This document shows, in pieces, positions 21,614 through 22,600 of a DNA stretch of 26,980 nt. The stretch is from Anaerolineae bacterium (GTDB lineage: Bacteria > Chloroflexota > Anaerolineae > 4572-78 > J111), in the NCBI GenBank assembly GCA_023151115.1, contig JAKLJP010000074.1, positions 1-26,980 on the forward strand. Direction: 5' to 3'. Position 1 is the first letter of the stretch, and the number at the start of each line of letters is the position of its first letter. The position numbers and the translations under genes are program-made. The notes under the pieces were generated by a model. The model searched no databases and had not been told where the DNA came from. It was given only the letters and a program-made list of their open reading frames with translations.

Positions 21614-21642
21614 TTGACACATCCCCCATCCTGTGCTATAAT
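21614..21642 (+). promoter_or_regulatory. Consensus sigma-70 promoter of the tRNA-rnpB unit
   Basis: TTGACA (21614-21619), a 17-base spacer and TATAAT (21637-21642) match both consensus hexamers exactly, and the -10 has the extended TGn. It is the strongest promoter in the window. Transcription would begin near 21649, about 47 bases before tRNA-Arg. Confidence 0.92.
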
Positions 21643-21695: not shown

Positions 21696-21768
21696 GTCTC
21701 CGTAGCTCAGTGGATAGAGCATTTGGTTGCGGACCAAAAGGCCGCAGGTTCGAATCCTGCCGGGGACG
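21696..21768 (+). tRNA. tRNA-Arg, anticodon GCG
   Basis: A complete 73-base cloverleaf is present: acceptor GTCTCCG/CGGGGAC, D arm GCTC/GAGC with the A20 expected for arginine tRNA, anticodon arm TTTGG-TTGCGGA-CCAAA and T arm GCAGG-TTCGAAT-CCTGC. The anticodon GCG reads CGC and CGU. Most bacteria instead use ACG, edited to ICG, for this box. The CCA end is not encoded. A small hairpin (21770-21786) follows in the 25 bases before rnpB. Confidence 0.95.
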
Positions 21769-21793
21769 CTAAGGAGTTGCTCCTTACAAATTT

Positions 21794-22251
21794 GATCTTT
21801 GAATGAGTTGCGCCGTCGCTATCCAGGTTGAAAAGCCGGGTAGAGGAACTTCCCGACTCTCAGCTCTGAGGTTAAACTCTCAGAAGCAAGATTGCCTCAC
21901 GAAACAGTAAGTGAGGGCGTCCCACTAAAAGTGGGACGACTACAACCGCAACAGAAAGCAAACCAGCTCTTTACCAAACTCAAGACACACCCTGAGAATG
22001 GTGGAGAGTGATGGCTGAAACGGTAGGGTAAGAGCCTACCAGCGGTTTTCGGTAACGAAACCGGCTAGGCGAGCGTGCAATCGAGAGCAAGGTGAGTGGG
22101 CCGGGCTGTAAAGGTTCGGTCTCATCGCAGCAACAACAGTGAAGCAGGATAACACCCTGCAAATTAGGTGTTGCCACCCTAATCAGGGTGAGACAGATGA
22201 CGGTACGGCATAGCCGACAGAATCGGGGGTATTAAACTCTACTAAAAGATC
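21794..22251 (+). ncRNA. rnpB: RNase P RNA
   Basis: This non-coding stretch has the conserved core of bacterial RNase P RNA in order: GAGGAA (21843-21848), GCAACAGAAAGCAAACC (near 21947), GGGTAAGAGCCTACC (near 22027), GAGAGCAAGG (near 22084), AGATGACGG (near 22195) and GACAGAA (22216-22222). Helix P2 pairs CCGTC (21813-21817) with GACGG (22199-22203). P1 pairs GAGTT (21805-21809) with AACTC (22235-22239), with an outer extension GATCTTT/AAAGATC that sets the ends given here. The RNA trims tRNA 5' leaders. The P4 helix (21848-21856 with 22223-22230) is non-canonical but fully paired. Ends are approximate to about 10 bases. Confidence 0.9.
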
Positions 22252-22262
22252 ATTCTTAATAT

Positions 22263-22334
22263 TGCGGGGTGGAGCAGAGGCAGCTCGCCAGGCTCATAAC
22301 CTGGAGGTCGTGGGTTCGAGTCCCGCCCCCGCTA
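22263..22334 (+). tRNA. Initiator tRNA-fMet, anticodon CAT
   Basis: Initiator hallmarks are visible: no Watson-Crick pair at 1-72 (T1 against T72), the acceptor stem GCGGGG/CCCCGC and the A11-T24 pair in the D stem GAGC/GCTC. The anticodon arm is CCAGG-CTCATAA-CCTGG. The three G-C pairs usual at the base of the initiator anticodon stem are reduced to two, because pair 29-41 is A-T. It begins only 11 bases after the RNase P RNA end. CC but not a full CCA is encoded. Confidence 0.93.
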
Positions 22335-22353
22335 CCTTAATAAAGATGAAATA

Positions 22354-22401
22354 TGAAGGATGAAAACTTTTTACTTCCATCCTTCCGCCTTCATCCTTTC
22401 A
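22354..22401. repeat. Competing hairpins between tRNA-fMet and tRNA-Trp
   Basis: GAAGGATG (22355-22362) can pair perfectly with CATCCTTC (22378-22385), or GGATGAA (22358-22364) with TTCATCC (22390-22396). The two right arms are direct repeats of each other. No T-run follows the second. The spacer between the two tRNAs is 70 bases. Confidence 0.55.
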
Positions 22402-22404
22402 AAT

Positions 22405-22477
<73 letters not shown>

Positions 22478-22482
22478 TTGTT

Positions 22483-22556
<74 letters not shown>

Positions 22557-22562
22557 CTGTGA

Positions 22563-22600
22563 AAAAGAAAACCCGTCCCAATTGGGACGGGTTTTCTTTT
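22563..22600. terminator. Perfect palindromic terminator of the tRNA-rnpB unit
   Basis: A 38-base perfect palindrome centres between 22581 and 22582. Its GC core CCCGTCCC/GGGACGGG is flanked by AAAAGAAAA and TTTTCTTTT. It gives a stem followed by a T-rich tract on either strand. Confidence 0.93.

Follow-up and report, generated by a model that had tools for sequence, protein, structure and literature searches.

Exchanged base pairs in helix P4 of a probable lineage of RNase P RNAs from Chloroflexota

The base pairs of helix P4 that lie beside the catalytic metal site of RNase P RNA have long been taken as unchangeable. P4 is described in the available text of PMC4919922 as the most conserved region of the molecule, with 11 of the 21 universal nucleotides, and the accessible part of PMC4264200 states that the strictly conserved nucleotides are generally retained in plastid RNAs, inactive ones included. 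Can these pairs nevertheless be exchanged in nature? The question is raised by a stretch of 26,980 nucleotides from an Anaerolineae bacterium (contig JAKLJP010000074.1; hereafter the window), in which an initial annotation had read an RNase P RNA with compensatory changes in P4 and had implied that the case was singular. Here, we report that this feature is very likely the working RNase P RNA of this bacterium, belonging to one recoded lineage of P RNAs in which P4 has been rewritten. Such natural swaps suggest that a different letter code is tolerated beside the metal site.

An rnpB gene scoring below the Rfam cut-off

The features of the locus are given below, with E. coli numbering from the MG1655 rnpB (L180), where GAGGAA starts at 61 and ACAGAA at 347.

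21614..21642, plus strand: sigma-70 promoter-like site TTGACA-N17-TATAAT (12/12), with TG before the second hexamer (consensus scan)
21696..21769, plus strand: tRNA-Arg(GCG), CCA not encoded (tRNA match, direct read)
21804..22244, plus strand: rnpB, RNase P RNA (RF00010 over model positions 1-367 at 79.4 bits with E 1.7e-24, short of the gathering score of 100)
21843..21858, plus strand: conserved region I, GAGGAACUUCCCGACU, E. coli 61-76 (direct read, RF00010 alignment, E. coli numbering)
21848..21856, plus strand: P4 5' strand, A66 C67 U68 (U69 bulged) C70 C71 C72 G73 A74 (direct read, alignment, census)
21851..21851, plus strand: bulged U69, metal ligand, kept (direct read and census; role from the available text of PMC9433436 and PMC4919922)
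22217..22222, plus strand: conserved ACAGAA 5' of the P4 3' strand, E. coli 347-352 (direct read, alignment)
22223..22230, plus strand: P4 3' strand, U353 C354 G355 G356 G357 G358 G359 U360 (direct read, alignment, census)
22263..22336, plus strand: tRNA-Met(CAT), CCA not encoded (tRNA match, direct read)
22404..22478, plus strand: tRNA-Trp (anticodon CCA), 3' CCA not encoded (tRNA match, direct read)
22485..22557, plus strand: tRNA-Gly(GCC), CCA not encoded (tRNA match, direct read)
22568..22600, plus strand: probable intrinsic terminator, AAAACCCGTCCC-AATT-GGGACGGGTTTT then CTTTT, at the end of the tRNA-rnpB unit (by eye; absent from the terminator scan list)

When cmscan is run on the window at the gathering threshold, only the four tRNAs are shown and rnpB is absent. 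The locus nonetheless carries what marks an RNase P RNA: a P4 with a bulged U beside GAGGAA and ACAGAA, and a covariance-model match over the whole molecule. RF00010 is the best model of its clan for the window (one lower-scoring clan member was left out unnamed), and the RNA does not qualify as type B (RF00011). The region folds far more stably than shuffled versions of it (z -7.1). Scores of related recoded RNAs lie on both sides of the cut-off of 100, at 78.5 bits in the genome of the closest relative (G001) and 94.8 bits in genome G501, and above it in some relatives (e.g., 127 bits).

The segment 21614-22600 looks like one transcription unit, running from the promoter consensus through tRNA-Arg, rnpB and three tRNAs to a terminator-like palindrome. 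A single site was found by the promoter scan, while shuffles average 0.7 sites at 9/12 or better; from its sequence, this site probably drives tRNA-Arg, rnpB and the tRNA cluster. The ribozyme of such a unit would have to help cut its own transcript. Upstream of rnpB lies a block with genes for RpoA, TruA and S9 (NCBIfam names) that we take from its gene order to be a ribosomal-protein operon, followed by genes for TlyA and two kinases, one a histidine kinase and one a sugar kinase. The gap between tRNA-Met and tRNA-Trp holds a 13-pair terminator-like hairpin on the minus strand (22355-22385), and the same gap in the closest relative (L001) gives weak microRNA matches that are surely spurious. 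In another genome, G128, a tmRNA gene lies directly 3' of the recoded rnpB (L146, 1927-2284).

Three exchanged pairs in P4

On the 5' side, direct reading gives GAGGAA (21843-21848), C67 (21849), U68 (21850), U69 (21851) and CCCGA (21852-21856), and on the 3' side ACAGAA (22217-22222), UCGGGGGU (22223-22230) and A361 (22231), so that both flanking motifs are intact, as had been claimed. The resulting helix consists of A66-U360, C67-G359, U68-G358, C70-G357, C71-G356, C72-G355, G73-C354 and A74-U353, with U69 bulged. It differs from the canonical form by C67-G359 for A-U, U68-G358 for G-C and C72-G355 for G-C, and it keeps A65, A66-U360, the bulged U69, C70-G357 and A361. The P4 columns of the RF00010 covariance-model alignment read GAGGAACUUCCCGAC and ACAGAAUCGGGGGUA, which are the same strands, and the model places no canonical strands elsewhere in the region. 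The initial annotation thus had the P4 strands at the right place in the molecule, and its further claims, namely compensatory replacement of the core pairs 67-359 and 68-358 as well as 72-355, an A-U pair at 74-353, and eight formed pairs with the bulged U retained, hold on E. coli-based numbering.

Paired changes across the census

A census of both strands gave 220 distinct rows. Nine were dropped as not rnpB, cut or mis-paired (the canonical L388 among them), leaving 211 RNAs: 106 recoded, 100 canonical (including E. coli, L386 and L447 from outside Chloroflexota) and five half-way. All 106 recoded RNAs carry C-G at 67-359 and C-G at 72-355, while 68-358 is U-G in 78, U-A in 18 and C-G in 10. 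Pair 73-354 is G-C in 103, the three exceptions being G-U, A-U and C-G (L421), and 74-353 is mismatched in two. The nucleotides A67, G68, C358 and U359 of known bacterial RNase P RNAs are therefore replaced in the window and in 106/106 recoded RNAs; they are an observed regularity of the known members, not what defines an RNase P. Many recoded loci were picked by a 5' pattern that fixes C67, which biases these frequencies, but the loci found with RF00010 are free of this bias and the choice by 5' pattern does not force the 3' strand to pair. The constancy of GAGGAA, U69 and the closing UA is likewise partly built in, as the census pattern requires them and allows at most one departure per strand.

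When recoded, half-way and canonical RNAs are pooled into 27 distinct P4 strand pairs, 99.1% of cells pair vs 72.3% in shuffles (0/500 as high), the covariation score is 0.673 vs 0.188 (0/500), and 54 cells are changed on both sides vs 18.6; sliding the partner by one column lowers pairing to 49%. Of the five measures, two are less clear-cut: 6 pairs carry changes on both sides vs 5.0 in shuffles (15/500 as high), and further pair types number 12 vs 10.1 (50/500). Mapped on the protein tree (39 recoded hosts), pair 68-358 switched type at least 13 times; on the rnpB tree (51 rows) it did so 11 times. Because forms with C68 exist, U69 rather than position 68 is favored as the bulge.

Some RNAs carry part of the change. 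L431 (genome G512) has GAGGAACGUCCGGGCU with CCCGGCGUA, that is, C67-G359 together with G68-C358. In the class of G512, the 5' pattern occurs in 12/177 genomes, and seven of the loci (L458-L463, L467) are rnpB with a matching 3' strand; for the other five pattern genomes no rnpB with a matching strand was shown. Single flips in an otherwise canonical P4 are seen at 71-356 (G-C, L435) and 72-355 (C-G, L432), and further compensatory changes give 72-355 A-U in L416 and the 73-354 C-G of the recoded L421.

Shifts in the rest of the molecule

The changes extend beyond P4. A MAFFT comparison of 78 recoded and 43 canonical RNAs, in which positions outside the core motifs are approximate, shows that recoded RNAs also shift conserved positions 81, 82, 84, 98, 125, 144, 145, 171, 174, 232, 236, 253, 255 and 301, with C125, G232 and G255 among the changes common to 78/78. 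Of the 93 pairs in a consensus fold built from 24 recoded RNAs, 66 show compensatory changes, and the fold includes two covarying hairpins at the places of P13 and P14. A local GGA-ACU-UCC hairpin proposed by RNAalifold (columns 86-94) was set aside as invariant and uninformative, since the canonical GGAAAGUCC could form it too.

In the alignment columns, the CCA-binding GGU of L15 (E. coli 292-294) is not kept in recoded RNAs. A regular expression for this GGU proved unreliable, hitting 28/106 recoded RNAs (the printed ones via another hairpin) and missing at least 17/100 canonical ones. CCA is not encoded in 140/173 tRNAs near recoded rnpB vs 2/10 near canonical rnpB, the latter being few; identical tRNAs of L001-type loci were counted once, and the four tRNAs of the window were read directly outside this tally. 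Loss of the GGU is linked with tRNA genes without CCA in cyanobacteria. A link between the two in the recoded lineage is only suggestive, and the change in P4 may have come with a wider rebuild that altered L15 and often left tRNA genes without CCA.

Distribution in the class

An RpoA search returned 49 loci. The nearest relative of the window is an Anaerolineales MAG, H5_CFX5 (L001; genome G001), with 99% RpoA identity, followed by H5_CFX7 (L003) with 95%. In further RpoA searches, about 12 matches (e.g., L187, L189, L211) cross one or two in-frame stops, where the alignment probably runs beyond the true protein end. Both H5 relatives hold rnpB at the same place with the same P4, except for an A358 in L003 that makes 68-358 U-A. 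RF00010 matches, one per genome, were found in 18/23 genomes chosen from the RpoA loci. Genomes near the window score 69-127 bits and have a recoded P4 wherever it is readable, while Thermoflexales-like and other genomes score 247-276 bits and have a canonical P4 wherever it is readable. In the order of G001, 18/25 genomes have matches, one each, all at 55-127 bits.

L001 is assigned by NCBI to Anaerolineae. In this class, the 5' pattern GAGGAACTTCYYGNCT occurs in 134/396 genomes and a reversed-pattern control in 17, so some of the 134 are chance. RF00010 matches 344/396 genomes, 254 of them above the cut-off and with two groups of E-values, in a search run with stricter filters that may lose weak matches. 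The remaining 90/344 matching genomes have no RF00010 match above the Rfam cut-off, and many of them may lack an annotated rnpB. Two RF00010 matches were found in 5/344 genomes: split matches of one place in G056 and G185, and split matches or second copies in G149, G209 and G332. Low scorers lacking the 5' pattern number 14: GAGGAACCUCCC and its complementary 3' strand, giving C68-G358, occur in 10, AAGGAACUUCCC in one, and three are unreadable. A complementary 3' strand is present at 19 of 20 further pattern-hit loci; the remaining one, L179, ends short of that strand. Seven of the pattern hits read were false (L092, L096-L098, L468-L470), and no rnpB of L471-L473 entered the census. No genome with both a recoded and a canonical rnpB was seen, the pattern hits read in canonical genomes (L096-L098, L468-L470) being unrelated DNA. 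As a fair estimate rather than an exact count, the recoded form occurs in about one third of the sampled class.

Distribution in the phylum

The 5' pattern GAGGAACYTCCCRNCT occurs in 47/400 genomes drawn from the phylum, and 25/25 loci read (L301-L325) are rnpB with a complementary 3' strand, two of them (L301 and L302) from genomes that the class sample also contains. Of 33 pattern genomes, 29 have type II reaction-centre proteins (PF00124), and in 24 a recoded rnpB was verified (L303-L325, L422). Most genomes encode the reaction-centre proteins separately; in others they share a single long frame of some 650 residues. Across 307 residues, the M protein of G501 is identical to chain M of PDB 8ydm, presumably from Chloroflexus aurantiacus, and the fused reaction-centre protein of G543 is closest to PDB 8iug, which we take to be from Roseiflexus castenholzii. 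RF00010 scores are again below the cut-off in G501 (94.8 bits), G606 (89.2 bits) and G543 (62.6 bits, partial). These three genomes, which hold the recoded form, look by their sequences like phototrophs resembling Chloroflexus and Roseiflexus. The implied singularity of the window's P4 thus does not stand, the form being common to about a third of the sampled class and shared with phototrophs. No earlier description of a recoded P4 was found in the accessible open literature, although older key literature may mention it.

One RNA clade in several host groups

In an rnpB tree built with P4 removed (256 columns), the recoded RNAs form one clade, 51 rows vs 53, with SH-aLRT 97; the subsample comprised 51/106 recoded, 48/100 canonical and 5/5 half-way RNAs. 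Support is 99 once six rows are omitted (L507, two outgroups and three long rows) and reaches 100 in another subsample, of 105 rows; these trees rest on about 250 columns, with long-branch warnings in two of the three. The half-way form needs three changes in the rnpB trees. On a protein tree of 3584 columns, the hosts need four changes, of which starred branches force at least three, and a single clade of the 42 recoded hosts is rejected (AU p 4e-5); this tree has 86 rows, 12 of them less than half filled, long outgroups and some other long rows, four rows of odd make-up, and Chloroflexia absent. That the recoded RNAs form one clade and their hosts do not points to replacement or reversion of rnpB, which perhaps took place in some hosts. 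Gene replacement, reversion and an ancestor with both forms are all compatible with the trees.

Weighing alternative explanations

A sequencing error is ruled out by the same letters in L001, at 99% RpoA identity, and by U68-A358 in L003. We give practically no credence to error more broadly, in sequencing or assembly, or to a misaligned P4, since independent assemblies repeat these letters, some with U-A or C-G as variants, and since both the RF00010 model and the flanking motifs place P4. The RNA might instead be a decayed copy, with tRNA 5' ends made by another rnpB or by a protein-only RNase P of the HARP kind. The low RF00010 score (79.4 bits) and the double matches in G149, G209 and G332 could be read this way, but a decayed gene accords poorly with the strong compensatory change over the whole molecule (24 RNAs) and in P4, with a perfect promoter consensus upstream, or with a single RF00010 match in each matching genome of the RpoA-derived set (18/23) and of the order (18/25). 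Moreover, no genome with both forms was seen among the canonical genomes whose pattern hits were read. RnpA was found in 36/36 genomes tested (20 recoded, 16 canonical), including the closest relative, so the RNA-based enzyme is probably kept, and its retention in 20/20 recoded genomes further argues against decay, which we judge highly improbable. A motif search by regular expression caught 15/30 RnpA proteins; the RNR-type motif is present in nine recoded and five canonical genomes, with G071 excluded as likely in the wrong frame.

A working RNase P RNA could still have acquired its P4 through repeated, independent events in different hosts instead of a single one. Four host changes on the protein tree, the rejection of a single host clade (AU p 4e-5) and the existence of the 67-359 swap in another class all speak for such repeated origins. 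The recoded RNAs, however, form one clade even without P4 (SH-aLRT 97, 99 and 100) and share C125, G232 and G255 in 78/78; one RNA lineage with gene replacement, or with reversion in some hosts, fits better, and we regard independent origins as unlikely. A last explanation equates the recoded RNA with type C, an RNase P RNA already known in Chloroflexota, which comes from the same phylum and is named for Chloroflexi in the available text of PMC4919922 and PMC7191817. This is very improbable: type C lacks P13 and P14 according to the accessible part of PMC2858038, and the recoded consensus fold has both. In addition, the rnpB of G699 (1710922-1711286, plus strand) coincides with the Sphaerobacter thermophilus type C coordinates given in PMC7191817, and its P4 is canonical (L417).

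Implications for the metal site

The available text of PMC9433436 locates an ion at the A67 and G68 phosphates and at O4 of U69, and that of PMC4919922 gives matching metal contacts in T. maritima numbering. With backbone phosphates and the O4 of U69 as ligands, base identity at 67 and 68 may change if geometry and bulge are kept. The recoding, from A67-U359 to C-G, from G68-C358 to pyrimidine-purine (U-G, U-A or C-G) and from G72-C355 to C-G with helix and U69 bulge kept, would then have conserved the geometry of P4 while base identity drifted through paired changes, and the recoded enzyme would cleave pre-tRNA in the normal way. Judging from these sequences, it is most likely the geometry of the helix, the backbone phosphates and U69 that sustain the metal site, rather than the bases paired at 67 and 68. 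To a broader reading we give an even chance: the base identities of the two bulge-flanking pairs would be dispensable for catalysis, a coherent P RNA lineage, spread across Chloroflexota by rnpB replacement, would have solved the P4 metal site in a second way, by placing pyrimidines at 67 and 68, and another class would have stopped half-way, at 67-359 only. Where nature itself has exchanged both pairs and they still covary, the role of base identity at an RNA active site can be told apart from that of geometry and backbone with no need for designed mutants.

Recoded-type sequences must have been public for years. The recoded lineage accounts for the rnpB of many such bacteria falling under the Rfam cut-off, as in the 90/344 class genomes, where it may go unannotated. 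The classical rnpB primers anneal to the P4 strands and would leave the recoded form unseen; primers based on AAAGUCC and GGCUUA should fail to pick it up.

Comparison with known RNase P RNAs

Type C RNAs (Thermomicrobium, Sphaerobacter), listed in two genomes only in the available text of PMC7191817, resemble the recoded RNAs in coming from Chloroflexota and in their low RF00010 score (102 bits in G699), and differ in the canonical P4 of the one type C RNA placed and in the absence of P13 and P14 reported in the accessible part of PMC2858038. The half-way RNAs of the G512 class share C67-G359 for A-U, but their G68-C358 and G72-C355 are canonical, and a score of 180 bits for L462 marks a different RNA background. 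In the available text of PMC2996960, the rnpB genes of Chloroflexus aggregans and of two Roseiflexus are noted as only partly retrieved by Bcheck, with no reason in P4 given and P4 itself unmentioned there; the similar-looking genomes G543, G606 and G501 hold the recoded form. Class A (RF00010; E. coli M1 RNA) shares with the recoded RNAs a full-length match, the U69-bulged P4, GAGGAA, ACAGAA, P13 and P14, and the ACAGA and GAGCAA motifs. The recoded RNAs depart from it at 67-359, 68-358 and 72-355, at no fewer than 14 further conserved positions and by the loss of the L15 GGU, and the window's RNA scores 79 bits against the cut-off of 100.
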